In this document: in pieces, positions 3,388 through 62,950 of the stretch
Layout of the letters: each line of letters opens with the position of its first letter
Position numbering within the stretch: position 1 is the first letter of the stretch
Assembly: GCA_947561395.2 (NCBI GenBank)
Contig: OX387183.1
Span: 60,743,915 to 60,807,914, forward strand
From: Buxus sempervirens
Lineage: Eukaryota > Streptophyta > Magnoliopsida > Buxales > Buxaceae
Reading direction: 5' to 3'
Length of the DNA stretch: 64,000 nucleotides
Notes under the pieces: generated by a model
Told to the model about the DNA's origin: nothing
The model's database searches: none
The model's input: only the letters and a program-made list of their open reading frames with translations
Position numbers and translations under genes: made by a program

Positions 3388-4408
3388 AACTACTCTTAAG
3401 GTCCACGATCTATAACGATTCTGAATTTAACAATTGCGGAAACAGTACACAAAGAATTATACGAGGAAACCTGGATCCAGATCCAGGAAAAACCTCGAGT
3501 CTATATGAGGCGACTAACCCTTCAAAATCCACTATTGAATGAGAAGACAATTACAAAGGAGAACATACTTAACCTTTACAATTTGACTCACTCAACAGCA
3601 ATCCACAGTTCGAATCCACGAACTGCTACACAGCTTGAATCCACAAGCTGCAGAACACGATCAGTCCAGATCGCAAACAATCACTCTCCAGTGATCCACA
3701 GTTCGAATCCACGAACTGCAACACAGCTTGAATCCACAAGCTGCAGAACACGATCAATCCAGATCGCAGCAATCCTCTCAGAATCCACTGAGACGATCCA
3801 ATGCAGTAGGAATCCACCTACGCATCAATCAAGGTCGATCACCAGTCCAGGCGATCACACGATCGGATGAAGTTCTGAATTGAAGAAGAATCCTCTACCT
3901 TCAATTCCAGGTGATCTATCTCAGATCTCCCCCTCACTCAATCGCCGACTCTCTAAAGACGATTTGATCGAATCTCAAATCTCTCAAGATCCGAATTCAA
4001 AATGATCCAAAGAAAAAAGTCACAATTAAAAATTACAACTCGTCTATTTAAAGAATAAAGCACAAATCGCGTCGAGCGCTGGTAGCGTCGTGAAGCGATC
4101 GAAGAAGACGGCTGGTAGCGAACTCATGTCCCGCTCAGAGTGAGTTGAATCTGTTAGATGCGCGTTGCTAGCGAGCTGCTAGCGGGAGAGTACGCGGCAG
4201 GTGCACGATCCTTGCTTTTGACACACGAAATTCCTTATGCGCTGCCAGTGGGGTGGCAGCGGCATGGTAGCAGTGTGGTGGCACCAACTCTTCTTCTTTA
4301 CTGAATTTTCTGAATTTTCATTGTTTAATCTGCACATCTTGAAGCTTTATTAGAAACCTAATTTGTCAATCATTTGCCATAACAGGAGTGTGAGTTTTCA
4401 CACTTACA
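3388..4408 (-). repeat. Copia 3' LTR
   Basis: This is collinear with 5498-6518 over 1021 bp with no indels. By eye the copies differ at about six sites, all C/T on the plus strand, which suggests decay of methylated cytosines. A G-rich polypurine tract lies next to its start (4409-4419 on the plus strand reads 'atctccccctt'). Confidence 0.9.
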
Positions 4409-5484: not shown

Positions 5485-6518
5485 TGAAAGAGTAGAGAAC
5501 TACTCTTAAGGTCCACGATCTATAACGATTCTGAATTTAACAATTGCGGAAACAGTACACAAAGAATTATACGAGGAAACCTGGATCCAGATCCAGGAAA
5601 AACCTCGAGTCTATATGAGGCGACTAACCCTTCAAAATCCACTATTGAATGAGAAGACAATTACAAAGGAGAACATACTTAACCTTTACAATTTGACTCA
5701 CTCAACAGCAATCCACAGTTCGAATCCACGAACTGCTACACAGCTTGAATCCACAAGCTGCAGAACACGATCAGTCCAGATCGCAAACAATCACTCTCCA
5801 GTGATCCACAGTTCGAATCCACGAACTGCAACACAGCTTGAATCCACAAGCTGCAGAACATGATCAATCCAGATCGCAGCAATCCTCTCAGAATCCACTG
5901 AGACGATCCAATGCAGTAGGAATCCACCTACGCATCAATCAAGGTCGATCACCAGTCCAGGCGATCACACGATCGGATGAAGTTCTGAATTGAAGAAGAA
6001 TCCTCTACCTTCAATTCCAGGTGATCTATCTCAGATCTCCCCCTCACTCAATCGCCGACTCTCTAAAGACGATTTGATCGAATCTCAAATCTCTCAAGAT
6101 CCGAATTCAAAATGATCCAAAGAAAAAAGTCACAATTAAAAATTACAACTCGTCTATTTAAAGAATAAAGCACAAATTGCGTCGAGCGCTGGTAGCGTCG
6201 TGAAGCGATCGAAGAAGACGGCTGGTAGCGAACTCATGTCCCGCTCAGAGTGAGTTGAATCTGTTAGACGCGCGCTGCTAGCGAGCTGCTAGCGGGAGAG
6301 TACGCGGCAGGTGCACGATCCTTGCTTTTGACACACGAAATTCCTTATGCGTTGCCAGCGGGGTGGCAGCGGCATGGTAGCAGTGTGGTGGCACCAACTC
6401 TTCTTCTTTACTGAATTTTCTGAATTTTCATTGTTTAATCTGCACATCTTGAAGCTTTATTAGAAACCTAATTTGTCAATCATTTGCCATAACAGGAGTG
6501 TGAGTTTTCACACTTACA
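5485..6518 (-). repeat. Copia 5' LTR
   Basis: On the minus strand the LTR starts TGTAAGTGTG at 6518 and ends in TTTCA at 5485, two bases before the primer-binding site. It contains an internal tandem duplication of about 96 bp rich in 'gaatccacgaactg' and 'gaatccacaagctg'. A 1021-bp part matches the other LTR with only a handful of differences. Confidence 0.9.
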
Positions 6519-6534
6519 GATTCAGCTCAACTAC

Positions 6535-6930
6535 CACTACAAGAAAATACAATTTTTTGCGGCATCCTAATGTTGCCACCAATAATAGATGAGTCGCCGC
6601 AAAAAAGATTTTGCGGCAACCCGTGCTCGTCGCAAAAAAAGCCGTCGAGAATACTATTTGCGGCAACATAAGCGACGGTTGCTACTAATATTAAGGGTTT
6701 TAGCGGCAACCATTGTTGTCGTGAAAGCTTGGTAACTGTAAGTTCATATTTGAATTTGCGATAAAGACATTTGAATTCGCGACGAAGTAAGGCCGCCACT
6801 AATAGTTACCAAAAAACTTTTGGCGACGAAGGCAACTGTCGCAAAAGTTGCTACTAATAATTTGTACTTTTGATGACATTAAATTTGCGACAGAATAAGG
6901 CCGCCGCTAAAAATACAAAGTATCGTGACC
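6535..6930. repeat. CACTA left subterminal repeat region
   Basis: Multiple copies of 'gcggcaac', 'gtcgcaaa', 'gcgacg' and 'gccgc(c/t)act' in both orientations cluster here, for example near 6556, 6612, 6660, 6712, 6780 and 6895. In CACTA elements such motifs bind the element's own DNA-binding protein. The assignment of binding is by family analogy. Confidence 0.75.
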
Positions 6931-7892
6931 AAATAATAATTTTTTTTCTGGTAATTACAAACATAACTTGATGTGCAATATATGAAATGGCTTTGCCATA
7001 TAAACATACAATCTCATTTGTGATAAGTAATAAAAAGAGAATTGTGAAACATAACTTGAGTCTTGAGATGGTTAAAACATCCAAAGATATAATATTATTA
7101 AGAAAATCAAACGGAACATTCAAATTACTTGTCGTCAACCTAAAAGAAATTAAAATCTCTCAAAATTATAAACTTGAAGTACACAATTAAACAAATTTCA
7201 ATGTCGTTGAGCCATATGCATTCTAATAATTGTCATTTACACAAATATTAATGTTTGTTCTCTCTCCAAGAGCTCCTCTGCATTTGTATTGCTAAAGCCA
7301 AAAGCCTACAAAATAAACATAAAAGACAAAATATAGTTTAGTTGCATAATCTCACACAAGCCAAAAATGTCTTTCACATAGATTTTATGTCGAAGACATG
7401 TGATGGATAAGAAGAAGCAAATCAACGCACAAAAAGAAAATGAATTCCAACCAAAAACGTTTTTCACATAGACTTTTTGTTGAATAAGTGTGATAGATAA
7501 GAACAAGAAAAGCAAGCACAAGAACCATATGAAATGAATTCCAACTATTTTATATATATTCTCTAGACCATTGCTCCTATTGTACGTGCGAGCAAAGTGC
7601 CACCAATTTGCTTCGCGAGACTAGAAGGTGCCCAGTTTAGAGGGAGGGACCAGGCATATATGTTTACCTTTAAGAATCAAAAAAAGAAATTAAAGATGCA
7701 GTAACTCCGCTGGAAGCAAAAAGGAACAGGAGTTGGAAACTTTCAGTTGACATTAAACTCCATGTCCGTCTGCGGCCCTACATCTCTAAAGCAAACCCTA
7801 TTCTAAGCTCAAACAAAGCCAACCTACCTGAGTCTATATAAATTCAAAAGCTACCCCCACAAGGCCAACACACACACAGGGGAAAGAAGTCA

Positions 7893-8012
7893 TAATGCCT
7901 TGAAGCCTTTCTGAAGAGGAGGAAACTGAATGACCATTTGTGATTATAGAGTCTCTCTCTTTATCCTAATGCCTTGAAGCCTTTCTGAAGAGGAGGAAAC
8001 TGAATGACCATT
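7893..8012. repeat. 46-bp direct repeat, two copies
   Basis: A 46-bp unit beginning 'taatgccttgaagcctttc' occurs at 7893-7938 and again at 7967-8012, with a 28-bp spacer. It is inside the CACTA element; no function is evident. Confidence 0.85.
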
Positions 8013-9500
8013 ATATTCTAAAATTTGTTCGTCATCACTGTTACCTTTTTGCATTGGTTGGAGAAGCTTTGGTTGAACGCACAATCTAAAAGTTGTGAGC
8101 AATAACTAAATTTCTTATCTTAACTGATTAACATGAAGAACATACATCATATTCGTTCATGTAAATTCATGAAAACAAGAGAATTGGAATCTGGAAAAAG
8201 TTCATAAATGGTTGCATTAAAAACAAGTGAGAGAGTAGAACAAAATCTTTCTCCATGACTGTTATCATATGCATACTGTATCTCCATGGAATCATGAGAT
8301 ATAAGCCTCTGAACCCTAAAAAATCAGTTGGAAACAGCAAACAAATTATCAGCAAACTATAGAAGTAGAAAAGAGGAGGGCATTGAGAGCATTCTGTAAA
8401 AATGATGAGTCGCCGCAAGACTAGGTTGCAGCAATGAATCAAGCATTCTTGATATACAATATTTTGGAATCTCAGCAAGAAGTAGAGAAGGGTGGGATCC
8501 ATCCATTGGATTCAAAAAGAGAGAGTAGGAATGTAATACACGTAGTATAGTTCATTAATATGCAAGGGGTTTGGCAGGGACATTTGGTAGATGCAAGACC
8601 AAAAACTAATATAATTAGTTTACAGAACTGGAAAGGAAATGAAACTGACAGGTCAATAAGTGTGAGTTCGTGAAAATCAAACCTTGCCTCTTATTAAAAT
8701 AAAAAAAAGTAATACAAAAAAGAAAAAATGGTTAATAAAGAACATCAAGATTTATGTGGGTTGGCAATGGGTAGGAGATAGCAAGGTTTTGATGAGAGCA
8801 GTGAATAACTAGAAAATATTTGACATATGAAGAAGTCATAATTATATCATGTTCATATGACAAAATTCCTTCTCTCAACTGATTTGCATGAAGAAAATAA
8901 ATCATGTTCTTTCCTGTGAATCCATCAAAATTATATCTACACATCAAATTTTGTACAAATTCATTTATAAGACCAAGAATAACACAACAATATAATGCTT
9001 GAAAATCATAAAGAACTCAATAAACCATAAAAGTTTTATGAACTTAAATTGCTGTATTAATTAATAAGGGAGATGATGGTAGGTGGTGATGGTGGTTTCT
9101 CAAAAAAAGTTTCAAATGAGTAGGATTGAGAAAATAATGAAGTTTTGATTTGACATCTCACCCTAAGAAACAGGTTTTGGAACCAAAGGTAGTGGGCAAT
9201 ACAGATAGATCATATATATATCATAGCTTTAATTTTTGTGGATGAAGCAGGAGACTATCACTTGTCTTTGCAATACATAGGAATTTTGATAAATAGGTAA
9301 AAGATATAAAATAACAATAGTTAATGAAGTAAGTCAACAGAAACTAATAGTAGATACCAATTTATTTTAATCAAGCATAAAGTTACTTGAATAACATATA
9401 GTTATCTCATTGGGAGTTTAGCTGTATGAGAGTAATAAATTTTAACTAAATTTATGAAATCACAATAAAAGAAGAAATCTAAAAGATTTTGGAAACCAAC

Positions 9501-9795
9501 CTTGTTCATCTGGTTCAGATAAACCAGGGATCCTCCCTGCCAAAAGGCCCTGTTTTACTACTGCCAACCCATCTCTTGGAAAACCCAAAACTGCAGTAGA
9601 AACTAAAGAAACCCCAGAAATAATAGCTGATCTTCTCAAAAACCAAGAGGATTTCTCGGTATCTTCATCATCAATTCCATTTTTTTCCGATTCACCCGCA
9701 CAAGGTATACTTATCTTCTTTGGTTGTGGAAATTGCGAAGACTGGTTATGATTTCTCAAAGAGAAACACCAGCTTGTGAAGAAGGCTGAGCTCAT
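9501..9795 (-). pseudogene. PPD4: Captured first exon of a PPD4-like PsbP-domain thylakoid lumen protein
   Basis: The frame starts with Met and encodes a chloroplast transit-like serine-rich N-terminus, then a twin-arginine lumenal signal (RRSAIISGVSLV, then an AVLG/LAV stretch), then VKQGLLAGRIPGLSEPDEQ. The last string is the conserved start of the mature PsbP domain-containing protein 4 family. A GT donor follows directly at 9500-9499 on the minus strand, exactly where 'DEQG' should continue into the next exon. No later exon with the WRTYRRPDEK-type continuation is visible in 8000-9490. It is a truncated exon inside the CACTA element, so I infer transduplication. Recognition is from memory of the family and should be confirmed by a protein search. 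Confidence 0.75.
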
Positions 9796-9993
9796 TTTTC
9801 TCTAGACAAATTTTTGGTTGAGAAACAAGCAAAGCAGGGACTTGTCTTGTTTGCAATTAATCCAAGAGCAAAATTTCTCAGACAGGGAAACTGAAACTTC
9901 CCTTTTTGTAACTAAGAACAGTTAAGTCTATGTTAAATAAGCTCTTCCATTGAAGAATGCTGTGGAAGCTGCCTGTTTTTTTCCTTGAGATTC

Positions 9994-11055
9994 TTATATC
10001 AACCATTTTGATATGATGTTGGGTTGCTTCATGCACATCCATGGTGGCAAATTGTATGGAATCAAAACCACTGGCCATATACTATATGTGGTATTCATTG
10101 ATCGAAATGGATTAAATCCATCACTTGCTAAACCCAACCTAACATTACGGGTCTCCACAGCGAAAGATGGGTGATTGATATCAAATGACTTCCAAGCCTT
10201 TGAGTCTGCCGGATGCCTTAACAAACCATCCTTGGTACGTCCCTCATCATGCCATCGCATGTCAGAAGCTATTTTTGATGACATAAACATCCTTTGGAGC
10301 CTTGGTTTTAGTGGGAAATAACGTAAAACCTTGGCTGGAATTTTTTTCTCACCTTCCGATCGATCTTTAACATTCTTATACCTTGAAGTGCCACATATAT
10401 CACAATTCTCCTTCTTTTTGTCAGGCTCTTTCCAGAACAACATGCAGTTTTTAGGGCAAGCATCAATCTTTTCATATCTCAGACCCAACTCTTCAATAAT
10501 CTTTTTGGCTTGGTAATAGCTCCCAGGTAATTTTGATTCCTTGGGAAATGAAATTTTCAACAACTCAAGAAACTGGGTCATAGACTTGTTACTCCATGAA
10601 TTTAAGCACGTTATATGAAAAAGCATCAAAATAATTGACAACACAGTCTGCGTCTTATACCCTGGGTATAATTCTTGCTCATATTCATTCATTAATTTGG
10701 AGAAGTTATTAGTATGTTCATTGTGCTGGTGTTTAGGTTCTTGCTCTTCCAAGTTTTGGTTCCCAACACCACTTGACTCTTCATTCTCGTTTTGGTTTCC
10801 AAAACCACTTGGCAATTCATGCTAGTTCTGATTCCCAAAAATATCATGTACTAAGTCTCTAATACCATCATCTCTTGTCACACTAGGCTCATTATTCCCC
10901 AAATTGTTAGTAGACGCTGCTAACTGTAAAATATCTTCTCCATGATGATACCATGTCCTATAATTTTTAGCAAATCCAAGCCTCAAAATGTGGTCTTCTA
11001 CTGTATTTCGATGATGCCATAACACATTATTGCATTTGGGACACTGACACTTCAA
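9994..11055 (-). pseudogene. CACTA transposase (TNPD/transposase_21 type), truncated
   Basis: The upstream part (11055-10822) reads MKCQCPKCNNVLWHHRNTV and YRTWYHHGED, the transposase-associated zinc-binding domain found at the N-terminus of plant CACTA transposases. An in-frame stop near 10820 separates it from 10815-9994. That second frame contains the transposase_21 domain: CPKNCMLFWKEPDKKKENC, RYFPLKPRLQRMFMS, MRWHDEGRTKDGLLRHPADS and LGLASDGFNPFRSMNTTYS. The usual continuation after PPWMCMKQ is missing, and the sequence runs into unrelated DNA near the PPD4-like exon. Function is therefore lost. It is the only coding trace of the element's own genes. Confidence 0.9.
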
Positions 11056-11547
11056 TTGTTCCCCAATATTGGTTCTATGATCAAATGCAAACTGAAGAAA
11101 ACCCTGAACACCATCAAGGAATTCATTGGTTGCCCTATTTAAGCTAGAAAATAAGAATTATATTAGTATATCAATAAGACATATACAAAATAAAAGAGTC
11201 TAAACCAAATAAAATTTAATAGTTATATACCTCATCCAAGACTTATCCATAGGAGAGTATGTTGTTCCTCAAAGCTCTCAATTCTTTGTTGATTTGGTTG
11301 CAAATAATCCTCACTCCTTATTTCAACTAACAATTCAAGTGACTTTAATTACCATTATTAAATGTATACATTCATATTTTTAGAACTTGTAATAGAAAAA
11401 AAAAGTTAAACAACTTTTAAGAAAGAAAAGAATATAAGGCAACCTATAATACATAGTAGACACTAGTTTTATCTAAGCAACACAATACTAAAGGAAAGAA
11501 AATAAATATTCTAATCAGTATTGTCCATGATGAATAGCAGTTACTAG

Positions 11548-11700
11548 TTTTGTTGAGGATCTAATTACCATTTGTAAGTGCATGTGAGAAGCATGCCATC
11601 ATTTTGTTGAGGATCTAATTACCATTAGGAAGTGCATGTGAGAAGCATGCCATCATTTTGTTGAGGATCTAATTACCATTAGGAAGTGCATTTGGCCTTT
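11548..11700. repeat. 54-bp tandem repeat, nearly three copies
   Basis: Units beginning 'ttttgttgaggatctaatta' start at 11548, 11602 and 11656, so the period is 54 bp. The second and third copies share 'ccattagg' where the first has 'ccatttgt'. The array lies inside the CACTA element just upstream of the SMXL-like fragment. Confidence 0.9.
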
Positions 11701-11816
11701 TATATTGTTCAAAAGCCTAATTAATGGTGGTTAGGTATCAGTTGGGTTTTTCCAAAAATCCTAATTAACTTGTCACATCAATGGTCCATTTCTCAAGAAA
11801 AGAAGCAAAATGATGT

Positions 11817-12530
11817 AGGGGCCATGCTCTGGTCACTCCACTCCATGTGGCTGCAACCTTGCTGAGCTCAAGGTCTAGTCTCTTGAGGAGGGCTTGTCTC
11901 AAGTCCCAACCTCATCCCACTTCACATCCTCTCCAGTGCAGAGCTCTTGAGCTTTGCTTCAACGTGGCTCTCAACAGGCTGCCAACCACACCTGGCCCTC
12001 TCCTCCATAGCCAGCCTTCTCTCTCCAATGCTCTCATTGCAGCATTAAAGAGAGCTCAAGCACATCAGAGGAGGGGTTGCATAGAACAGCAGCAACAGCA
12101 GCTCTTTTGGCCATTAAAGTGGAATTAGAACAGCTTATCATTTCCATCCTAGATGATCCTAGTGTTAGTAGGGTGATGAGGGAGGCTGGGTTCTCCAGCA
12201 CCTCTGTCAAGAACAACCTAGAGGACTCTTTAGCTACTTCTGTGTTCCCTTGTTATGGTAGCTCTGGTGGTGTTTTATCTTCTCCTTGTTCTCCTTCTCC
12301 TTCTGATAATCACAAGGAAACCATCAACAACAGCAATTACTGGCAAACCCACCTCCTGAATCTCTCGTTTGAGCAAAACCCAGTTCTATTCCCCACTCAA
12401 AAGAAACATTTATGCACCCCCATAATAGATTCAGCTACTGAGGGGGATATCAGATTGGTTTTGGAAGTTTTGTTGAGGAAGAAAAGAAGGAACACTGTAA
12501 TCGTTGGGGATAGTTTGCCCACTAAGAGAC
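11817..12530 (+). pseudogene. Captured SMXL4/5-like gene fragment (double Clp-N region)
   Basis: Translation gives [19 protein letters not shown], then [20 protein letters not shown] and [15 protein letters not shown], then after a frame change [20 protein letters not shown] and [12 protein letters not shown]. Further on it reads [18 protein letters not shown] and [20 protein letters not shown]. These are the double Clp-N domain, the linker and the start of the ATPase region of SMAX1-LIKE proteins, closest in my memory to SMXL4/SMXL5. The frame slips within a CAG run near 12095. The fragment lacks the start codon and everything after the first ATPase strand. It sits in the CACTA element on the opposite strand to the transposase and the PPD4-like exon. 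Confidence 0.8.
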
Positions 12531-14339
12531 ATGTGTATTCATTTAATTGTTTCCCTCAAACTACATTTTTACATGTAAATTCCAATTAGAACAAAATATT
12601 TATTGTAAATACCTAAAGTGGATAAAAAGGGAAAAGGAAAAAACAGGGGGGAAAAACATACGATCAAAAATAAAAAATATAAAAAAAGGAAAAGGAAAAA
12701 ACAGTCAGCATTCCCTGTTTCTTGACAACTCTGTTTTCTTTGTTTCTTATTGCACAAGTAATCCAGGTCATATACTGTTGTTATATAGGTTTATAAGTCT
12801 TTCAAGATAATAATCTCACCAAACCCAACATAAGAATATCCACAAAAATAACTCTGTTTTCTTTGTTTTTTATTGCACATGTAATCTAGGTGCATGCTAC
12901 AGAAATACACTCAAATAGCATTCAAGTAAGCCCTGAAAACAAAGTGTAATTCGGCTTCACGGCATGACAAATACACTATAGACACAATGCCTAGGACTTT
13001 CTTCATTAATTTTCCAAGAAATTACACTCATAGCCAAAGATTGACAGCATGAAGTTAATGTTTGTCCCACTATCCAGACATGCATTTCACTCCTCATGCA
13101 TAGTAAAAGTATACTAAAATGACAAAAATACCAGCAAACTACAACTTCAATCCTTACGTAAAAGCTCAAGGTCCCACAGATTACATAACAAAACAAAGCT
13201 AAATATTTTTCTTCTTCTTTCAAACATTTAACCAAACAGTGAGTACACAATACACAATAAAGTGCTAAAGCCACGATTCATGGATTCACGGGTTCATGGT
13301 TCCACGTTCCTTGAAAAGCCTAACGCGAGGTAGGCAAAGAATGCCTGGTAAAAGATAAGAAAGTCATTACAGTGAATACATTCAGCTTACTTTGGCTTCG
13401 AAAATGGGAACTTAGCGATGACAATAATCTTGGTGCATTTGCCTTGTGTAAAATACAAACACATTGGCCTCCAACGATCACGCTTACGAGCCAATGATAC
13501 AGTTGAACGACTCGAGTCTTCAGTAGAGACGGAAGCAGAGATGTTAAATCTCTAGACAGGAGAAAGTGACGGAATGAAGGTAAAATCAATAGACTCCTAA
13601 TTGGGGAAAATCAGTAGGTAAAAAAGAGAAATTCCAGATTACAATACTCTATAAGAGCAAAATCAATCGACTCCTACAAATAGGTATGAAACACCAATTG
13701 GGGAAAACAAAATATAGAAAAAAGTTAAGAAATTTACTAAGAAAATAATGAGATGTGAAATAAAATAATACTTACCTCAGGTTGTAACGAGTGGAATCAA
13801 CAGAAAAAGGAAAATCCTTCAACGAATGACAATAGCACCAAGGATGGCAATAGCAGGTTGAGTTTCCTTTACAGAGAGTAGTCGAGAACGGCAGGTTGGG
13901 GTTCTGTTATAGAAAAAGCAATTAGCAGTTGTCGTTCTTTTCAGAGGGCTAACATTGTTCCATCGATCAATGTTCAATATGCCTGAAGAACTTAAGCAGA
14001 AATAGATGATGAAAAAAAATAAATCCAAAACCATCAGAAAAAAAGAGATGCACATTTAAACCAGAAAATTTTGCATATTAAATCTCTGAGTGAACCATAG
14101 AAAGGGGAAAGGAAAAGAATCACGAAACCAGAAACCTGTAAAACCCTCCAATAATGCGAAGATCGACAGTCACAGAGGGTCTGCTTCACTGAGTGCTGAT
14201 CGGGTGTCTTCAATCTTTCACAATAGATAAAAAGTGGGAAGCAAGTTTACTGAATGACCAAGGCTTTTGCAGGTTAATGGATGTGTGCGTGGGACTAGGG
14301 CTTGATCAAGATAGTGAGAGGGAAAGGAGAAGAATGAAG

Positions 14340-14584
14340 ATGCGTGCGCGGGAAAGGGAGAAATGTGTTGCGCGCGAAAGAACAAAAGCCCAACAAAAGG
14401 CGACGTCGCGAAAACACAAAAGAGCGTCGCAAAAGCCTAAACAAAAGGTGCTGTCGTGCAAATAAGAAAAGGCGACTAACAAATTGCGGTAGACGAAAAA
14501 AGGTGTCTCAATTTGATGTTTTAGTGGCTATCCGAGTAAGTGTCGTAAAAACGTTGTCGCTAAAAGCATCTTTTTTTTGTAGTG
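14340..14584. repeat. CACTA right subterminal repeat region
   Basis: Motifs such as 'gcgacgtcgcg', 'gcgtcgc', 'gctgtcg', 'ggcgac' and 'gttgtcgct' lie in the last 250 bp. They mirror the left end and stop at the terminal TGTAGTG. Confidence 0.7.
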
Positions 14585-15183
14585 TACAAATACAAAAAGT
14601 AATACCCAGAAAAATGGAAGAGGTGGCAGTAAGATGGTCTCTCCCTAAGGCAAACAACACTAAAGTCAATGTTGATGGAGCAGCTAGGGGATGTCCGAGA
14701 AGAGCTTCATACGGCATTATTGTAAGAGGCCCACAAGGGGAGTTCATAGCAGCCGCAGCAAGCTTGGTGGGCACTTCGTCAGCTTTAGTGGTAGAAGCCC
14801 ATGGCCTCCTGGAGGGGATTATTCTAGCCCAAGCTTTGAACATCACAAGGGTTGAAATTGAAAGTGACTCAGCAACCATTGTCAACCTTATGAACAAAGA
14901 AAATGGTGATTTACCGTGGGAAGTGGAGAATATTATTGAAGACGCAAAACTCAGGTGCAGACACTTTGATTTGTACTCAGTTAGCCACATCTACAGAGAA
15001 GCAAACTTTGCTGCGGATCTTTTTGCAAATTTTGCTCTGGATGACTATTCGTGTATCTGGCTTCACCATCCTCCTTGTTTTCTCTCTACTCTCCAGTTAG
15101 ACTTCATTGGGGGTACACATATTAGGAATGTTAGAGTTATTGATCAGGAATGTTGTAAGTTTTAATACCAAAAAAAAAAAAAA
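14585..15183 (+). pseudogene. LINE ORF2 C-terminal RNase H domain and poly-A tail
   Basis: The frame from about 14614 to a stop at 15163-15165 encodes an RNase H-like domain: VNVDGAARGCPRRASYGIIV with the first acidic residue, then VEAHGLLEGIILA, then IESDSATIVNLMN, then SHIYREANFAADLFANFA. This is the plant LINE type (RVT_3). It is the continuation of the LINE truncated at 2506. The tail is A-rich and ends exactly at the target duplication (15184). Confidence 0.9.
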
Positions 15184-16015
15184 GTCCTACTCAGCCAGAT
15201 CTGACAGAGTCTTCAATGCCTTTAGACACTACGAGTCGCATAGCGGAGGTGTCGTCAATGTCTAACCATTCATTGCAATCTCGCATATCGAAACGGTCCA
15301 CAACGATCTATGTCAGGTTGCACTGGAGAATGGGCATTGTCTGCAGCACGCTGCAGATCGAGGATGAAAGTCCTGCACTGCACTGGAGAAGAAGGTGACC
15401 ATTGTGATCCTCCTGTTTCAAAAGAAATGGGCAATCGATGGAATAGTGGAATCAGTAAATTGTTCTATCAGGTCCATGAACCTCAATGTACTCGAAAGGG
15501 CGCCTTGCTTTGTCGGTATTCTCGTTGACTGTGCTGTACTAAACGATTCTCCGTCGCTGCTAACAAGTCAATCAGTGTACAAAGTGGGCGTGCTTTTTCT
15601 TGGCGGTGCTGATGACGGGGAGGCTCTAGCCTACGGTGCATGCATGGCGAAACAAGAAAGCGTAAGTCTCATCGTCGTTCAATTTCTTTTGCTGGGAAGG
15701 GACAATGCAAGGGAGAGGAAACTTGATGGTGACGTGATCGATGAATTCAGGAAAGATCATGTGAGAAACGAGTGGTTCGTGTACATAGAGCAGGTGATAA
15801 AAGATGGAGAGGGAGTTATTGCAGTGATAAAAGGAATGGAGGATGGTTTCGATCCCATCATTGTGGGGAGACACCATTCTAAGGAATCCCCTATTTTGTT
15901 AGAACTTAATGAATGGAGCGAGTGTGCCGAGTTGGGGACCGTCGGGGACATGCTTACCTCACCGGACTTTGGAAGCACGGCGTCCATGTTGGCGGTGCAA
16001 CAAGGTAGAGTATGA
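15184..16015 (+). pseudogene. CHX15-like antiporter pseudogene, right piece (C-terminal domain)
   Basis: The first segment reads SARSDRVFNAFRHYESHSGG and then hits a stop at about 15265. From 15395 a 206-residue open frame encodes WAIDGIVESVNCSIRSMNLN, VLERAPCFVGILVD, VGVLFLGGADDGEALAYGA, then IIVGRHHSKESP and the terminal AVQQGRV. These match the cytosolic C-terminal domain of CHX proteins; the intact neighbours have NVLERAPCSVGILIDRG, FLGGNDDREALTYGKRM and the VVQQQ end. Compared with them this copy is closer to canonical CHX15 wording (WAIDGxVES), so it is a distinct paralogue. It lies on the opposite strand to the intact genes. Confidence 0.8.
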
Positions 16016-25088: not shown

Positions 25089-26372
25089 TTACGTGGAGGA
25101 ATATTGCTGTTGTTGCACAACCAGCACAGAAACTCTACTCCGGACATCCGCCGAAACTAGTAGATCTCCAATAACCCCAAGCTCCATGAATGTACTCCAT
25201 TCTGCAATACCTGATATTAGGGGCGAGTTCATCTTATGGCGCCTCCCGACCATTATCAGGTCATATTCATTCTGGATAGATCGAATCGTCAAGGCAGTTT
25301 CTGCACCATCTCTCACCACTACCTCCTTGTAATAAACATTCTCATGACCAAGAGGATTAATCTTGACATCCTTCAACAACTCATCATCAAACTTTTTATC
25401 CCAATTATCTTTGTTCCACATTTCTTCCTCTGAAGTGAACTGAATTACTGTTAGATTGACTCTAAGATCTCTCGCCATGCGTTTGCCGTATGTCAGTGCC
25501 TCTCGATCGTCATTCCCGCCCAAGAATAGGACGGCCACATTGTATGATGACTGTGATAATATCGTGGTTACGGAGCTTCCCAGGCCGCCTCGATCAATTA
25601 GGATCCCTACGGAGCAAGGAGCCCTCTCAAGGACGTTGCGGTTCACCATCCTCAAGCTTTGATTTTCTGCAACTGTCGTTCCATCTTCAGCCAGTTTCTG
25701 ATGAAAAGGGAGTATTATTAGAGATGTCAACTTGTCGAGGGCAAGCAGGCTTATGTCTTCGTGCATAAACTTGAGTGCAGAGACGACGGTGTAAGCATGC
25801 ACTGTTACAGCGTCCTCGTTGTGTTGCTGATAATAATTGAAAGATTTGAGGACGACCTCAGAGTAGGATTTATTATCGGAATAAGTCTTTTTCTGAAACT
25901 GGTGAGAGATGAAGAGGGGTGATTCTCGGCCAACAAGCTCAATAAGGTGGAGGACATTAACAAACGTGGGGCTTTCTTTGGAGGGACTAGAGGCTTCTAA
26001 CAATTTGATGATGCTCGGAATGTCATCTGCGCTGTAGACGCACACAAGCGTCCGAAGTTCAGCGTTCTGTTTAGTGTGCATAATGGTCCTTTTCCTGTAT
26101 CCTGCATACTTCCTCGAAGGATCATACAAGGATCTTACTGCGATCGGCACCACTGCAGCAAACAACATGATAAGGATAGACATAATGGTGTAGGTCTGTT
26201 CATCTGTTCCCTGCGTTAAAACGAGGGACAAAGAATGGGAGAATCAATTAATGAAGAAGAGGAGAAAAATATTCCATGATCATTATCCTGAAATTAAGCT
26301 GTAGTTCTTTACAAATCAGAAAATCACATTATCCTAAAAAAGAAGGGGGATCAGTGGATACCTCTATATATA

Positions 26373-26436
<64 letters not shown>

Positions 26437-28173
26437 TTTTGTATAGATAAATTTAAGAGGAAACAAAATGTCTACTCTTGACAAGTCTTAGTTACCTCGG
26501 AGTCTCGGGCAAGGCTAAACGCGGCAAGATCCACAATCCCTTTGGAGCTCATAATAAGGGCGAGGGCTAAAGCATCGTTAAATGGCATCCGACAATACAC
26601 AGCAATCAAAAAAACCACAGCAACCTTCCCTGCATATGTAATAGCTACAATGCCCACATTCAATGCTATAGTTGGCCAAGGGTATTTGAAAAATATATCG
26701 GCCTTCACGCCCATTATAGTCACGAAAACCGGCACCAGAAACCCTGAGACAAGAGTTTCAAGCTTATTTACGACAGCAGATCCCAATGGTGGTCCGTCCG
26801 GTACAGCCAAACCAAGAATGGAAGGTCCAAACAAAACCGATAGATGAAGTTTATCACTAAATATTGAAGACAGCAAAAACATTATAAAGACTGCCATAAC
26901 GTATCTGTCATTCACAGGTCTCCCTTCGGGTGTCTGCCTCACCATCCAAATCATGGCCGGCCGGCATATGAACACAATAGTGAGCAGAAACCCGATAATT
27001 AAGCCAATGGTTGTGAAAAAACCGGAGAGTGTCAGTCCATTTGAGAACGCTCTGATGAAAATGGATACCGTCGTTAGAAACACGCTTAATTGGTCACTGA
27101 TAAGTGCTGCAGACAAGGCAAGACGACCCAACTCCGAATTGATGATCTCGATGTCATTGAGAAGGCAAGCTATGACGGGAAAGTTAGTAAGAGCATGGGT
27201 TGCTGTTACAAAGCTTAGGATTTTGTAGGTTTTCTCGTCTAGTTTCCTCGGAAGATTACTGGTTATGAGAGAAAAGCTGCTCAGTCCTACAATCAACGGG
27301 GCCAACCATGCTAAAATGCCTATCGTGAAGGCCCTTTTTCCTGTCCTCTTTATCATGCTAACATCCATTTTCACCGAGACTATGAACAAAAAGAGTACGT
27401 ATCCAAAAAGGGCAAGGGTTCCAAGTGTATTATTTGCATGGGGAGGGAACATCAACTTTGCAAATTTCCTGTTGCGAGCAAAAATTGCCAGTATTAGACC
27501 AGCCTGCAGGTTCCCACACAAAGAAATCAATGTCATTAACCAGTCACGCTATTGTTAATCATTGGTTATAACATGAACATATTACCTCTAACACAACCCA
27601 CAGTTCAGTTGGTGATTTTTTTTTCCTTTTGTGACACCATTACTTGATTCCTATTGTAACCATGGTTTGTTGTTGGTCACTAGTAGATAAGCATTCATTC
27701 TCAGGCACTGCCTTCTTATGGAATGGATTTAAAGAGCCATATTTAAGGCATGCAAGAATTAATCATGGTATGCCTTTTAGAGACGTCACTTCTCAATCCA
27801 TCTTAATTTTCTTATAACAAAATAAACCTATATCGACTATTAAAGGGGCAAATAGAATCCGAGACAACGTCGCGCATGGTGGTGCAATGCAAGCCTTTGA
27901 TGGACATATGTGCCCTAAAAAATATAGAGAAAAATAAATGGAAAGATCAAGAAGGATAGCACATACAAGGAACTCCGAGACAATTTTGGGGATTCCAAAC
28001 CGCTTGAAAAGAGAATGAAAGGTATGTGTGAGGAAGAAGATCAGCGTCGACTGGAAAAGCAGAAGAGGCAGAATGTACTGCAAGGGGCTCTCATTGGGCT
28101 TCAAGTACCAGAAACCCGTTGAGGTGACGCTGAAAGGCAAACTGAAGCATTTAACCGGAACTGTCGAATCCAT
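25089..28173 (-). CDS. CHX15-like cation/H+ antiporter, copy A
   Basis: This is a CPA2-family monovalent cation/H+ exchanger; plant CHX proteins act in endomembranes or plasma membrane in K+ and pH homeostasis. Exons (minus strand) are 28173-27967, 27503-26496 and 26210-25089, with GT-AG borders (GTATGT and GTAACT donors) and phase-0 introns. They give 778 residues. The N-terminal two thirds holds about 12 hydrophobic segments with AGLILAIFARNRKFA, THALTNFPVIACLLND, SAALISDQLS (the conserved Asp), GLAVPDGPPLGSAVVNK and MSSKGIVDLAAFSLARDSE. The C-terminal cytosolic domain contains FLGGNDDREALTYGKRM and ends VVQQQQYSST. The start is supported by a leader CAGGCTCG.CACATGG conserved with copy B. 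Intron 2 carries a long TA repeat. The gene appears intact. CHX15 is the closest Arabidopsis name I recall, not proven. Confidence 0.93.
26363..26434. repeat. TA microsatellite
   Basis: About 70 bp of almost pure (TA)n with one C interruption lies in intron 2 of CHX copy A. It is likely to be length-polymorphic. Confidence 0.95.
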
Positions 28174-28800
28174 GTGACGAGCCTGGTAGGTTCTTCCCCT
28201 GTTCCCTCTTCTTGCTGGGAGGTGAAATACAGAACAGAAATGAGCGACCTAGTGCTGGGCGGCACCTTCCACTGGTAGGGAAACGGAAGGACGAGAGGAC
28301 ACCAAGGCCAAGCTTCCAACAGGCTGTTTTAATAAGTAAATTTACCGAATTCTTGTTGATGGAACCGTTAGATGAGGGAGAAGTTTCGCATCTATAAAAG
28401 ATCGGATCCTGTGTAGTTCCAGCTCTTTGTGCTACTCTACGATTCACTTTGTAAGGCTAGGATTGCCCCACGATATGATATTGTGTGGTTTTCAGAAACA
28501 ATGGCAAAAAGTTTTCAGGTCTATCTGTTTTGTGAGCGATTATATAACAAACAAAGACGATTCCACTAGACCTGGAAATCTAATCCTTATTGATACAACT
28601 ATGGTTAACTAGGATTAAGTTAGACTTGAAGGAATCAAGTTGTCGTATCATGTTTGTTGGAAATAGTGGTTCATATTTTGGATCTATGGGGAGGAATTAA
28701 GGGTATTTTTGGTATTTCAAAATACCGATTGGTATATATATCATGATGTAATCCTAATTGAATTTTTTATAAGTGAAATTTTGCTGCACAGTGGATGTAG
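28174..28800. other. Upstream region of CHX copy A
   Basis: The 25 bp next to the start codon are conserved with CHX copy B, which supports the start. A plus-strand TATAAAA-like sequence at about 28393 faces away from the gene. Nothing else is recognisable. Confidence 0.4.
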
Positions 28801-29362
28801 TGTAACGTACCGTACCCATACCCAGTACAATATTGTCCGTTTTTGGTCTAATGGGCCCTCAAGAATTTTTTCTTAAGGGAAAACACGAAAGAACTTTCCA
28901 GTGGTCACCTATCTTAGCACTGCTTTCACCCAAACACGCTTAACTTGAGGGTTCCAAAGGGATTTAGTCTCGTGTTATGTCTTAAAAGGCCTTTTGCTTT
29001 ATAAGGGATCACAAGACTACTTATAGCATCCCTGAGCATTGTGGGATCTCAACCATATGCACATCCTCGCCTAATAGTTCGCCAAGTAGGATTACCCATT
29101 CACCCGCTCACTTAAATAGACAGGATGTCACATACTCCCCTCCATGGGACAACACATCCTCGCTTTGGGCTGAACCCTCACACTTCCGGTTGGGCAAACT
29201 CTGATACCATTTGTAACAACCCAACCCAACGATGTGGCTGATGATTGCAAATTTTACTAGATTGGGAAGTTTTCTCGTGTTATCCCTTGAGAACAAATCC
29301 GTGAGAGCCCATTGGGCCCAGAGCAAACAATATCTTACAAGGTATAGGTCTGGGGTGTTACA
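28801..29362. mobile_element. Degraded Cassandra-like TRIM with 5S rRNA-derived sequence
   Basis: The left part starts TGTAACGTACC. At 28882-28967 it contains a clear reverse complement of 5S rRNA ('gtcacctatcttagcactgc', 'cacccaaacacgcttaactt'). A related LTR piece lies inverted at 29211-29362, starting TGTAACA and ending TGTTACA, and contains the 3' end of 5S-like sequence in the opposite sense (29267-29288). Primer-binding-site text TGGTATCAGAG flanks that inner piece on both sides (minus at about 29197-29209, plus at 29365-29376). Cassandra TRIMs are known for 5S sequence within their LTRs. This copy is rearranged and old. Confidence 0.75.
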
Positions 29363-30928
29363 AATGGTATCAGAGCTTTGCCTCGACTGAAAAATGTGCA
29401 TATGACATGTGTAAGTCCTTTGAAGATTTTAAGGCCATGCATGCTTACAATTTAGATAATAGAGTTATTGATCGTCTAGTAAATTTTGCTGACTGATATT
29501 AGATTGTTTCTTATATTCCATTCCTTCGGAAAAGGGAAAAAAGGTGTTAAGCCTGGCCGTCTGAATTGGAGCGGATCCTAGTGTTCCACAACACTTTGTG
29601 AATCAAGAAGATTCTTACAACTAGCTTTGTAGATCAATTATAATCTCTCTTTTATTAGAAATTTTCCAACTCAATTGTCATGGAGACCTAATTAGTTTTC
29701 TGAAATAAATGCCTTTTCAGAGTAATTAGCAAAAATCCCCTAAAAGCCATATTGATTTTGATATGATTGCTCTTCTGCTCTTGATTTCCGTTTGTTCAAT
29801 ATGTTCTACTTCTGTTGAGGTGATTTTTGAAAATATGTGGTTTGATTTGGGATGGATGTGAATTTTATTGAGTTAATGGAAGGATAAAGTTGGAGGTCAT
29901 AATTTTTGTCAACTTAACAATGGATTTATGTCTAGTTTTAGGTCAATGTAAATGTTGGGATCCATGAAGAGAAATGAAATTGCAAAATTAGGCATTTTTT
30001 TTTGTTGTTGTTTTGTTTGAATTGAACAGAATCATGTTATATGTCCTAGCTTTCACCATTTGAGGAAAAAAACTTTATCCTGGAATGTAAAATATAAGAG
30101 ATTAATGTAGTGCTAGCTTTTTACAATCATTTTATTTGGTGTTCTGTTATGTTCAACTCAAGTATTTGCTTTGCAAGTGTTTGTATGGTTACATGTGTTT
30201 ATGTTATTTGTTTGTGTGTGTGCCCACAAAACAAATTAAGTTTTTAAACTTTGATTGTTTCACATTCCTGTAATCCAAACATTCTAGTCTGTATCTTCAA
30301 TCAGTTTCCTTTTTCTTTCCGGCCGGATAATTAATATTTAATAAAGTATATCAAGAAAATTTTTGTTTCTAATTCCATAGCATGCTTTACAATATAAGGT
30401 TTCCACTGTGGCCTTCAAGTCCTCTGAAAGGTCCTGCCCTTGATCACAGATTGCCCGCCTTCAAGAGCGTCAACAAATTCTAGCATCTATATATAAGCTG
30501 AGCAACACCATGGGCAACCCCATAAATTGGTGATGTTTGCAACTAGAGGTCCTCACCATTTAATTCAAATTATTTCATTTCTTACTTTAATTTAGAAATC
30601 TGTTTCTCTTTTTGTAGATATGGTTGACTGGTGGTGAACATTTGCTAGCTACAAATCATCCCCGAACAGATACATTTGGACAGAGAGAAAAAAAAAAGGT
30701 TTAACGGAAGATAAACCAAGGAAAAATTATAAGACAGAACAAATACCTTGATGAAAAAAATAGATCAAAAAATAAATAAATAAACGCCCACCTAAATGGG
30801 GAATTGCAAGATAAGTCTCCAAATTTTTAAGCAAGTTTGCGTAAATGAATTGACAATGTCTACACAATAGAAACTGTTTCAAGTTCTCTAAAGGGATCTA
30901 ACATGCATATCTAATTATATCTACTTCT
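29363..30928. other. Intergenic DNA between the CHX genes
   Basis: The first bases hold the outer primer-binding-like motif of the TRIM relic. The rest is AT-rich without coding sequence. The 3' untranslated region of CHX copy B should lie at the right end. Confidence 0.5.
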
Positions 30929-33731
30929 TTAACGTGTGGATTGGTATCGTTGTTGTTGCACCACCAATACAGAAACTCTACTGTTGAAGTCCGATGAAGC
31001 AAATAGGTCTCCAATAACCCCAAGCTCAGGGAATACACTCCATTCTGCAAGACCTGCTGTGAGTGGTGAGTTCACTTTATGGCGCCTCCCTACCATTATA
31101 AGGTCATAGTCATTATCTATAGATCGAATAGCCAAGGCTGTTTCCGCACCGTCTCTCACCATCTGCTGTCTATACTCGACATTGCTATGACCACCAGGAT
31201 TGAACTTGACATCCTTCAACATCTCCTCATCAAGCATTTTATCCCAATCTTTGTTCCAGATATCATGCTCTACATTGTTGCACATATCTTGCTCTACAGT
31301 GAAGTGAATGACTGTTAGATTAATTCTGAAGTCTCTTGCCATGCGTTTGCCGTATGCTAGTGCCTCGCGATCATCATCACCTCCAAGGAAGAGGACGGCA
31401 ACACTATACGCCGACTGTGATAATACTGTGGTAACCGAGCTGCCAAAGTTGCCTCGGTCGAGAAGGATTCCTATGGAGCATGGTGACCTTTCAAGGACAT
31501 TGCAGTTCACTGTCCTAAAGTTTTGGTTTTCTGACAATATCATTCCATCTTCCGCCAATTTCCTATGGAAGGGGATTATAATTAGAGATGCCAACTTGTC
31601 GAGGGCAAGCAGGCAAATGTCTTCGTGCATAAACTTGAGCGCAGAGAGGGTGGTGTAGGCCTGCACTGTGACAACCCCTTGGTTGTGTTGTTCATAATAG
31701 TTGAAAGCTTTAAGGACGACCTCAGAGTAGGATTTGCCATTGGAAGAAACCTGCTTCTGCAATTGGTGAGAGATGAAGAGGGGTGTGGTTCGTCCAACAA
31801 GCTCAATGAGGTGGAGAACATTAACACAGATGGGGCTTTCCTTTGAGGGATTGGAGGCTTCCAATATTTTAATGATGCCTGGAATGTCATCTGGGCTGTT
31901 GATGCACACAAGGATCCGAAGTTCAGCATTTGGTTTGGCGTGCATGATAGTTCTTTTACCGTATCCTGCATACTTTCTCGAAGGATCATACAACGACTTT
32001 ACTGCAAGTGGCACCAATGCAGCTACCAGGGCTATTATAATAACCATCATGGTATATGTCTGCTCATCTGCTGTCTGTTTGAATTGAAAGCAATACAGTC
32101 CATATGTTAGTAATTTTGTTCCACTAAATGAAACAAGCTAAGCTGGTAATTGAAAGCACCATTATATATGATCTACAGGTCCCATAGGTGTGTATAGATA
32201 AAAGATGGAAAGAAAATAAAAGTCCACTCTTACGTGGATCCTTTATCTAGACTCCTTACGTGGATCCTCCACAAGATTGTGTCCTATGCCCCTTAAAGCA
32301 TTTAAGAAAACTACATTTACATCGTCCGAACAGCACATGGCACAATCTTGTGGGGGATCCACATAAGGAGTCTAGATAAAGGATCCACAGGATTTCAATT
32401 GTTTAGTTACCTCGCTGTCCCTGAAAGCGCTAAAAGAGACAAAATCCACAATCCCTTTGGAGCTCATAATAAAAGCGAGGGCTAAAGCATCTTTAAATGG
32501 CATTCGACAATACAATGCAATGAAGAAAACAGCAGCCATCTTCCCTGAATATGTGATGACTACCAGGATCAAATTCAATGCTGTAGTGCCTCCGCCGTAT
32601 TTAAAAAATATAGTTGCCTTCACGCCAATTAGAGTCACGAGAATCGGCGTAAGAAACCCCGAGACAAGAGTTTCAAGCTTATTTACGACGGCAGATCCCA
32701 ATGGTGGTCCGTCCGGTACGGCCAAACCAAAAATAAAAGGTCCAAAGAGAACCGCTAGCTTAAAATAATGACTACATATTGCAGACAGCAAGGACACTGT
32801 AATGACTATCATGATGTATGAGTCCTTCACGGGTATCCCTTCTGGTGTCTGCCTCACCATCCAAAACATGGCCGGCCGGAAAATGAACACGACAGCGAGC
32901 AGAAAGCCAATACATAACACGAGGGTTGTGGAAGCTCCGGTAAATGACTTTCTATCTGTGAACTCCTTCGTGTAAATGCCTACCGTCGTTAGAAGCACGC
33001 TTAAGAAGTCACTGACAAATGCTGAAGAGAGAGCAAGTCGACCCAACTCCGAATTGGTGATCTTGAGCTCATTGAGGAGGCAAGCGATGACGGGAAAGGG
33101 AGTAAGAGCATGGTTTGCTGTTACAGAGGCTATGATTTTGTAGTTTTTATCGTCCAGTTTCTTCGGTAGACTTCTGTTTATGAGTGCAAAGCTGCCCATT
33201 CCCAGAATCAAGGGGACCAATAAAGCCGAAGCGCCTATCGCGAAGGCCTTCTTTCCCGTTCTGGTTACCATGCTAACATCCATTTTCACCGAAATTAGGA
33301 ACAAAAAGAGCGAGTACCCAAACATGGAAATGGTACTGAGTATGTTATTTCCATGGGGAGGGAACATCATATTTGCAAATTTCCGGTTGCGCGCAAAAGC
33401 TGTCAGTATTATACCTGCCTGCAAGTTCATACACACACCCAAATATACATAAAAAGAAATCAATAAACGGAAGGAGTAAGAAATACACGAAACTAACGGG
33501 AATGAAGAGATGAAGAAGGATATTACATACCATGAACTCCGAGACGAGTTTGGGGAAACCAAAACGCTTGAGAAGAAAATGAATTGTGTGTGTGAGGAAG
33601 AAGATGAGCGTCAGCTGGAAAAGTAGAAGAGGCAGGACGTACTGCAAGGGGTTCTCATTGGACCTGAAGTACCACAAACCCGTTGAGGTGAGGCTGAAAG
33701 GAATAGTAAAGCACCTAACCAGAGGTGCCAT
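30929..33731 (-). CDS. CHX15-like cation/H+ antiporter, copy B
   Basis: This is the tandem paralogue of the gene at 25089-28173, in the same orientation. Exons (minus strand) are 33731-33531, 33418-32411 and 32074-30929, phase-0 GT-AG introns, 784 residues. Exon 2 is 1008 bp, exactly as in copy A. Conserved landmarks include AGIILTAFARNRKFANMMFP, NHALTPFPVIACLLNEL, SSAFVSDFLSVLL, GLAVPDGPPLGSAVVNK and MSSKGIVDFVSFSAFRDSE. In the C-terminal domain NVLERSPCSIGILLDRG, FLGGDDDREALAYGKRM and a VVQQQRYQSTR end are seen. Intron 1 is only 112 bp. Intron 2 (32075-32410) contains a foldback MITE. Sequence differences from copy A are spread over the protein, so the duplication is not recent. No breaks were seen. 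Confidence 0.93.
32234..32388. mobile_element. Foldback MITE in CHX copy B intron 2
   Basis: The left arm 'gtggatcctttatctagact' is repeated as its exact reverse complement at the right end, 'agtctagataaaggatccac'. Pairing continues through 'ccacaagattgtg', giving arms of about 50 bp around a loop of some 55 bp. No clear target duplication was found, so the superfamily is undecided. Confidence 0.75.
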
Positions 33732-44592: not shown

Positions 44593-46053
44593 ATGGCTGG
44601 AACCTTAGAGAACATGGTGTTATGTTTTTGCCATGTTGATGGGGATATTGTTAGGACTGATGATGGACTAATCTCATATGCAAGTGGTCGTGTCAATGCC
44701 TTTCCTATTAACTGTGACACAAGATTTAATGAATTTGTATCAAGAATGTGTCAACTATGTAATACTTCTATGGATGGGAAGGTGATGAAATATACCACCC
44801 ATTTAGATAGGAGTATCTTATTACCATTAACATGTGATGAAGAATTACATAATCTAGTGATGTTAATATGTTGCTCATGTTTATATGGTACAAGATGATG
44901 GCAAAAATACAAAGTGAAGTGTCAAAATTAGATTTAACCTTAATGATTTTTTATATAATATAATGTATTTTTTTTATGTTAATGGATGTTTTATTTTTGC
45001 TACAGGAATGAAATTGCCAATGTTAAAACCTTACATAGCAGTATCAATCAATCACTAGCTGAGCCTTCTCAGTCCCAAAAAAGAAATGCATTAGACTTGG
45101 CATTCCCTAGACGTGCATGTGGTAGTAGGCAGCAGTTTATTTCAATCATTTATGAGGATGCTATTGTGGATAATTAAATATTTGATAGAGCAGACTCATT
45201 TCGTCATGCCATGTACAACTTGTCTATTGCACAGAATTTTCGCTATCAATGGGTTAGGAATACTGCGAAATACTTGCATGCCAAGTGTGTTGTTGATGGA
45301 TGCCCATGGAGAGTTAGTGCTCGACAAGTTAAAGACACAAGGTTTTTTAAAGTGAAACGTTTTGATAACTACCATAAACATAATGCAGGTGATGAATTGG
45401 GCTCAAGACCCCTTGTGAGGACTAAATGGATTGGTGGATTGATTGAAGAGACAGTAAAGTCTTCTCCAAATTATTTACCACGAAAAATCTGTAAGGATCT
45501 TCAATCAAGGTATGATATGCGAATTACTTATCACCAATCTTGGCATAGCAAGGAAAGGGCTAAGAGAAACATTAGTGGTGATTTGAAGGACTCTTATAGA
45601 TTGTTACCATGGAAGTGTAATAGGCATATGGAAGTCATGCCCGCATCAATTGCTCTTTGCACAGTAGATGAATGTGGTCATTTTCGTCAACTATTTATTG
45701 CATATCATTGCAGTGTTCATGGTTTTAGGAGTGGTTGTAGGCTATTGTTATTCATTGATGGCACATTTCTATTTGAACCATTTAAGGGAGCTTTGCTCTC
45801 AGCTACAGGAGTTGATGCTAACGATCAAATGTATTCCGTAGCATATGGGATTGTGTCATCAGAAAATTGTGAAGATTGGTTATGGTTCTTGAATAATTTG
45901 AAGTCTGCATTAAATGACTCGAGAGAGATTATCATTGTGTCTGACCGTCACCATGCAATTATTGAGGGAGTCCGGATTGTTTTTGGTAGTGAAAATCATG
46001 CTTATTGCCTTCGTCATTTAAAGGAAAATTTCAGTGCATTTTTAAGTCGTAAG
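44593..46053 (+). pseudogene. MULE transposase, N-terminal and catalytic part
   Basis: The segment 44593-44898 starts MAGTLENMVLCFCHVDGD, like the N-terminal PB1-type domain of plant MuDR transposases, and ends at a stop or an exon border. The segment 45005-45177 is poorly preserved. From 45187 the frame reads SFRHAMYNLSIAQNFRYQWV and CVVDGCPWRVSARQV (the MuDR DNA-binding domain with Cys residues), then the catalytic region: LLLFIDGTFLFEPFKGALL with the first Asp, GIVSSENCEDWLWFLNNL, IIIVSDRHHAIIEGV with the second Asp, and AYCLRHLKENFSAFLSRK. The frame is cut at 46053 by the solo LTR. Introns and degeneration cannot be told apart before 45187. Confidence 0.88.
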
Positions 46054-46129
46054 TGTAAGCACCTCATTTTTGCGCCCCGGAAGTGCCGGAAATGCAAACC
46101 CTAGATAGAAAGTCAAACCCTAAAGTGGG

Positions 46130-62107: not shown

Positions 62108-62950
62108 AATATCAAAAAAGATGAAAAAGATATTGCAATAGACTTATTGGATGGCATTGCAAGGGCAAGACTTCAAGTGGATTTTGAAGATATGTTACAT
62201 TAGCTAGATGCTATTTATGAGGGATGCTCAACTTGGGTTTATAACAATGCACCTGAACATTGGGCTTCCTGAATGTTTCCTAAAAGACGTTGGGGCAAGA
62301 TGAGTTCCAATATCGTGGAAGCATTCAACTTATGGATTAGAGTCGAAAGGCAAATGCCAATAATGACACTCATCGAGCAAACCCGTGAGAAACTAGGAGA
62401 ATTATTGTTGAGACGCTATGAGGAGGTGGCTTCTTGGGAGAATGTTGTTGGCCCAAACATTGATAAAGAAATTTTCAATAACTATAACATGGGTCATGGT
62501 TGGATTGTAAGGCGTTTCACCCTAACTGAATTTGAGATTGAGATGATGAGTGGCAAAAAGGTTGTAGTCAACTTGGAATCTCGCAAATGTACTTGTAAAA
62601 AATGGGATATTACTAGTATTCCATGTGAACATGCATGCCATGCCATAGAGAGATCCAAAAGATGTGTATATGATTTCATTGAAGAATGCTACCACAACAA
62701 TGTGCAACAACGCATTTACTCTGAGCTAATGAACGGTGTGCCAAACATCGATGTTCCTGAGGTTAGAGATGAGGCTCTAGTTGATACAAATGACAGTCCA
62801 CTTATTGTTGCTCCTCCTAAGACAAAACGTTCAGCAGGCCGACCGAAAACAAAGCGTATTGAGTCTCAATTTCAAGATAAGAGAGTCTTCCAATGCTCTT
62901 GGTGCAAGGGAATTGGCTACAATAGGAGAACATGCCAAACACCAATTTAG
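62108..62950 (+). pseudogene. MULE transposase, C-terminal part with SWIM zinc finger
   Basis: Reading resumes after the solo LTR with NIKKDEKDIAIDLLDGIARA, then meets stops near 62200 and 62271. From 62273 a 225-residue frame reads FPKRRWGKMSSNIVEAFNLW, MPIMTLIEQTREKLGELLLR and the SWIM finger CTCKKWDITSIPCEHACHAI (C.C...C.H). A C-terminal knuckle CSWCKGIGYNRRTC follows, and the stop is at 62948-62950. This is the expected order for a plant MuDR transposase. The stops show the gene was dead or dying independently of the LTR insertion. Confidence 0.88.

Follow-up and report, generated by a model that had tools for sequence, protein, structure and literature searches.

The window analysed here, a stretch of 64,000 nucleotides from the boxwood Buxus sempervirens (C3:60743915-60807914, in a genome of 676.5 Mb and 247 contigs), carries a CACTA (En/Spm-type) element of 8,050 bp at positions 6535-14584, in which fragments of a PsbP-type gene (PPD4-like), an SMAX1-type gene (SMXL) and a tentatively named ERI1-like exonuclease lie beside a truncated tnp2 transposase. 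The element starts with CACTACAAGAAAA at 6535 and finishes with TTTGTAGTG at 14584, and its terminal inverted CACTA...TAGTG is bordered by a 3-bp target-site duplication, TAC, at 6532-6534 on the left and 14585-14587 on the right; both features are characteristic of CACTA elements. A relative of the insertion site that lacks the element was found on C12 (L055, match at 32250959-32251084): it contains a single TAC and aligns without gaps to the joined window flanks (186 of 205 bases identical). Only 16 of the 205 aligned bases are on the left side of the junction, since a high-copy repeat extends as far as 6518. The existence of an ungapped paralogous empty site with one TAC identifies the element as a genuine insertion, and together with the reading of the ends it confirms the exact CACTA termini and TAC duplication claimed in the original prediction, which had been made from the sequence alone.

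Two features of the flanks can be mentioned here. To the right of the element, at 14668-15036, there is an RVT_3/RNase-H-like domain (PF13456, E 1.4e-22), whose paralog on C12 is the empty site, itself resembling RNase-H-like sequence. To the left, sequence of 608 bases or more is repeated in direct orientation (3801-4408 and 5911-6518, 99.2% identical). This repeat, which could extend further left of 3801, where the comparison began, resembles long terminal repeat sequence; its last ~100 bases account for 37 of the 40 scored matches in the empty-site search (98-100%), and the CACTA element begins 16 bases past its end.

The 5' end of the CACTA family (6535-7340, plus strand) comprises the terminal CACTACAAG and subterminal GTCGC and GCGGC motifs, and the 3' end region occupies 13600-14584 (plus strand). 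With 40 of 67 candidates scored, the first 401 bases were found at no fewer than 40 genomic places including the window, 38 of them at 86-100% identity; the last 405 bases gave at least 25 matches including the window, six of which, besides the window itself, are full-length or almost so (93-98%). Counted on both strands together, there are seven GTCGC motifs in the first 420 bases, five in the last 240 and one in the 6,700 middle bases, and the corresponding counts for GCGGC are eight, zero and two; such subterminal repeats of short motifs are likewise typical of CACTA (En/Spm) elements. So is a tnp2-type transposase, of which the N-terminal part is encoded on the minus strand at 9997-11157 in two frames (11157-10825 and 10821-9997), with Pfam matches to Transpos_assoc (PF13963, E 1.8e-20) and Transposase_21 (PF02992, E 1.2e-37). 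The latter match spans only columns 1-77 of 213, and therefore the transposase next to the captured pieces is indeed truncated, as had been proposed. It is longer in the relative L043 (C9:34.75 Mb), where a 774-amino-acid frame contains PF02992, PF13963 and PF13960 (DUF4218); DUF4218 and DUF4216 were found in L043 and L044.

The hexamer ATGTTG at 10016-10021 occurs on both the PPD4 and the tnp2 side of an internal join. Four relatives (L026, L028, L036 and L040) retain sequence and long frames past this join, and the window copy is without most of tnp2; as this comparison shows, the window copy lost most of the gene through a deletion at the 6-bp microhomology. A 54-bp tandem repeat in three copies, the third 67% identical over its length, occupies 11548-11709. 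Elsewhere in the genome, eight copies of the tnp2 N-terminal part lie within 2.6 Mb of C9 (28.4-31.0 Mb); in six of them the match begins at query base 670, in the other two at 697. This suggests local amplification of a truncated element.

The captured SMXL piece (11817-12522, plus strand) is 98.6% identical to a segment within exon 1 of a gene at C11:12703200 (L033). This parent has long open frames with matches to NBD_SMAX1 (PF23569, E 3.3e-97) and Clp_N (PF02861, E 5.1e-6), as well as an AAA_2 match slightly below the Pfam cut-off, and is apparently intact. A plus-strand SMXL4/5-like Clp-N segment had been predicted: the segment and its strand hold, a parental locus of high identity (98.6%) exists in the same genome, and Clp_N is present in the parent gene together with NBD_SMAX1; the SMXL4/5 subfamily is one that we presume, Pfam supporting an SMAX1-type protein only. 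In the window, Pfam recognised NBD_SMAX1 (E 1e-8) in the second SMXL frame and no family in the first. As these matches are thin, the identity of this fragment, as well as that of the PPD4-like one, rests on the parent loci found in the same genome. The captured 0.7 kb lies entirely within the frame of the gene's first exon, so that no intron comparison is possible for SMXL.

A genome search with positions 11780-12560 returned 12 matches, all accounted for: six element copies including the window, the gene, three diverged matches (68-71%), among which Pfam identifies L016 as an SMXL gene, and two short matches to neighbouring donors. We rejected L016 (C1:6990981) as the parent, since it is only 71% identical and a much closer locus exists. 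The 98.6% identity over 0.7 kb, with ends that coincide with joins, rules out both a pseudogene of SMXL and a chance match. All six element copies have identical end points and lack one C of a CC pair after 12101; given this frame shift, the captured frame in the window copy is not open throughout. Apart from the missing base, two fixed substitutions separate the six copies from the gene, both synonymous, and the remaining five changes of the window copy alter amino acids.

The PPD4-like piece (9440-10021, minus strand) runs from the upstream region through exon 1 (9795-9502) into the beginning of intron 1 of a gene at C4:18830888 (L039), to which it is ~87% identical with gaps counted. The minus-strand exon of the original prediction is thereby located and provided with a parent in the same genome, the match extending into intron 1 and upstream; a capture of this composition must have been copied from DNA and not from spliced RNA. 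When its exons were spliced by eye, the parent, read up to C4:18832999, matched PsbP (PF01789, E 6.4e-10), so the assignment supported by Pfam is PsbP-type only, and PPD4 is the subfamily that we take it to be; the window frame matched no Pfam family. Ten matches at nine places were obtained in the PPD4 search, corresponding to seven elements, the parent and a paralog at C4:53605389 (L046), which was rejected as the source (77%; a far closer locus exists). Each of the seven element places has a match to the CACTA 5' end, partial on C15 and 13.6 kb distant at C8:25749873. The sister elements L002 and L041 show gapped matches across 1,250 bases of the parent, of which the window copy retains 582. 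Four PPD4-bearing elements share CACTACAATAATACACAGCCACTAT, a CACTA-like internal string, soon after the PPD4 block (L036:4744, L038:3040, L040:6887 and L041:2981).

A third captured gene fragment, exon 1 and intron of the ERI1-like exonuclease, occupies 12907-13580 (minus strand). It matches C6:33669329-33686243 in order, in five pieces of 86-97% identity, and is 91% and 89% identical to L052 and L050, respectively. The C6 locus looks like a pseudogene of this exonuclease, and it is suggested as the source because a stop (PV*RF) is common to the window and C6 and absent from the relatives on C8 and C21. The name is tentative: the RNase_T match (E 0.002) is under the Pfam cut-off, and two PDB matches to ERI1-type exonucleases (E 0.78 and 0.91) are individually non-significant. 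Pfam also gave no match for two exon frames of L049, each taken singly.

Three further segments have donors but no recognisable coding frame by reading, no family search having been made on them: 7928-9442 matches C19:11953967-11955567 (93-94%, in two pieces), 11700-11817 matches C22:1162602-1162719 (94%) and 12518-12848 matches C12:27116312-27116632 (90%). Their donor segments end at joins or adjoin them. The element is thus a mosaic of material from at least six donor loci on six contigs, and the two captured genes originally reported are both present but underestimate the number of donor pieces. Of seven joins inspected, four share 2 to 6 bases: CACTA/C19 five (CCATT), C22/SMXL two, SMXL/C12 five (CCCAC) and the tnp2-deletion join six. 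The C19/PPD4 join and that between the ERI1-like piece and the 3' end have no clear shared stretch, and the gap between the C12 and ERI1-like captures is filled by a local duplication (12850-12900) of a stretch near 12727-12768.

The six SMXL-bearing elements are distributed over five contigs. Three are complete and have their own target duplications, TAC (window), ATG and CCT; of the incomplete ones two retain the 3' end, and the sixth, on C15, has adjoining tnp2, its 3' end being ~36 kb off. Every one of the five high-identity copies outside the window (gene excluded) adjoins tnp2 or 3'-end CACTA sequence. Hence neither of the observations that would have contradicted the original prediction, an absence of parent genes or the same arrangement outside a CACTA element, was made, and its structural reading of a CACTA element with a PPD4-like piece (minus strand), an SMXL piece (plus strand) and a truncated tnp2 is supported. 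Because the same frame-shifted SMXL piece is present in six elements, three of them with duplications of their own, it was spread by transposition.

To compare the ages of the captures, we counted fixed differences, i.e. positions at which the compared copies are all alike and differ from the donor; columns gapped in any row were dropped, and copies covering <60% or donors covering <50% of a segment were left out. For SMXL there are two fixed differences in 688 positions (six copies). The values for the other pieces are 5/114 for C22 (six copies), 36/733 for C19 (three copies, 7964-8697 only), 17/304 for C12 (five copies), 32/564 for PPD4 (five copies), and 14/176 and 18/217 for two parts of the ERI1-like piece (five copies each), i.e. 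4-8%, and SMXL differs from each of them with Fisher p values from 9e-4 to 5e-10. Most simply, the SMXL piece would be the latest capture, made not long before the six copies spread, since the element branch is free of constraint and yet has the fewest fixed changes.

The right-hand pieces (C22, SMXL, C12 and ERI1-like) might instead have been gathered in a single repair event with repeated template switching, their unequal divergences reflecting paralogous donors and coding constraint. They abut or almost do so, the C22/SMXL and SMXL/C12 joins share two and five bases, and, as far as the copies were read, the right-side pieces co-occur in SMXL-bearing copies. However, if the pieces were equally old, SMXL should have gathered more fixed changes on an unconstrained element branch than the 2/688 found, against 17/304, 5/114, 14/176 and 18/217 in its neighbours, and we regard a single event as rather unlikely.

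We therefore favour, with a probability of roughly 0.9, an internally deleted, non-autonomous CACTA element of En/Spm type that accumulated host DNA over several rounds and was then mobilised as a unit. Judging from divergence, the ancestral element would first have taken in the PPD4-like, C19, C22, C12 and ERI1-like material, and the 0.7-kb SMXL exon piece would have been acquired in a final round. The three capture joins that share 2-5 bases suggest that a broken element was repaired by copying from unrelated sites. The mosaic then moved as one unit, giving rise to the six copies with the same SMXL frame shift, and the window copy subsequently lost most of its tnp2 by the deletion at ATGTTG and would thus rely on the transposase of other copies. 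The captured pieces are most likely without coding function.

Another route has been proposed for Arabidopsis Pack-CACTA elements and carried over to the Pack-TYPE elements of rice and maize (PMC8903248 and PMC13317346): two nearby CACTA copies at a host locus move together, lose their inner ends and retain the host DNA between them. The captured pieces in the window are short and originate from six different contigs. A search that allowed up to two mismatches gave no inner CACTA end adjoining the SMXL or PPD4 pieces in the window (one weak match at 7428). These points make this origin a doubtful one for the mosaic.

Several observations weigh against the stepwise accumulation that we prefer. 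The sets of copies compared vary between segments (3 to 6), which influences the fixed counts; coding constraint on the SMXL gene slows the donor branch and partly explains the low divergence; and the two fixed synonymous substitutions could sit on the gene's own branch. The non-SMXL donor loci differ by ~6-11% from the element copies and may be relatives of the true donors. Repair by copying rests on short joins that are absent at three other capture joins, and capture between neighbouring elements, as in Pack-CACTA, is compatible with the data. As regards mobility, L045 has both ends and is flanked by GCG and CAC, with no matching duplication, and the copy at C3:29.7 Mb ends in TAGTA in place of TAGTG.

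The orientation of the pieces bears on possible RNA effects. The tnp2 gene reads leftward, and the SMXL piece is on the opposite strand, between tnp2 and the right end of the element; a transcript starting from the right side would accordingly be predicted to hold antisense SMXL together with sense PPD4-like and ERI1-like exons. Relatives of the ERI1-like gene act on small RNAs. The six near-identical copies might give rise to antisense or small RNAs that down-regulate the parent SMXL gene. Besides the antisense position with respect to tnp2, the extent of exact matching speaks for this: 551 of 684 window 21-mers are exact in the gene, and the other five copies have 463 to 575 of 671-684. In a review, maize Helitrons, Pack-MULEs and Sireviruses with captures are reported as sources of small interfering RNAs directed against donor genes, CACTA elements not being named among them (PMC13317346). 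But the element may be methylated and silent, and strong silencing should be selected against, as the parent retains long open frames; we consider such silencing improbable. Slightly less probable still, in our view, is that the recently captured antisense exon in its six near-identical copies would supply a trans-acting RNA that tunes the intact SMXL regulator.

Elsewhere in the window, by reading, two adjacent pairs of long frames at 25089-33610 (minus strand) resemble cation/H+ exchanger (CHX-type) genes in tandem, with a fragment at 15368-16015, and frames at 45178-46104 and 62273-62950 read like parts of MULE/FAR1-type transposases.

The mixing of unrelated genes, which the original prediction had regarded as notable, is not surprising for CACTA elements. 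Tgm-Express1, a CACTA element of the soybean wp allele, is described as carrying five unrelated host gene fragments that are spliced into chimeric transcripts (PMC1947982). A literature search that included CACTA together with SMXL did not retrieve the present instance among the papers listed; those listed as naming both mention CACTA once each. Multi-gene capture by CACTA elements is already published for Tgm-Express1 and Pack-CACTA, and the general picture of gene capture is unchanged. Like Tgm-Express1, the window element encloses, between CACTA ends, pieces of exons and introns from several host genes that are unrelated to one another; unlike it, the window element has no known location in a gene intron, retains a partial tnp2, recurs as a mosaic in the genome and contains captures that differ in divergence from their donors. 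With the En/Spm-type tnp2 group it shares PF02992, PF13963, the 3-bp duplication and the repeats near the ends, but it is internally deleted and contains host pieces. The Pack-CACTA elements of Arabidopsis, rice and maize (PMC8903248) likewise have CACTACAA ends and contain coding DNA of the host, taken from a single locus or from several. The window element resembles them in that host coding DNA with identifiable parents (the SMXL, PPD4-like and ERI1-like sources) lies between CACTA ends and in that several mobile copies exist, but it retains part of tnp2, and its sister copies retain more. As the pipeline is presented there, elements with a transposase match are sorted as autonomous and not as Pack-TYPE, the latter being free of transposase; since a truncated tnp2 remains, the window element is strictly a gene-capturing CACTA derivative. 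What distinguishes it is that its pieces seem to have been acquired at different times, the newest being almost identical to an SMXL-type growth-regulator gene. One CACTA family thus holds a layered record of capture, with older pieces, a recent piece and its surviving parent, dispersed copies and a deletion derivative, so that the sequence of captures, the way they came about and any influence on the parent SMXL gene can be tested directly.

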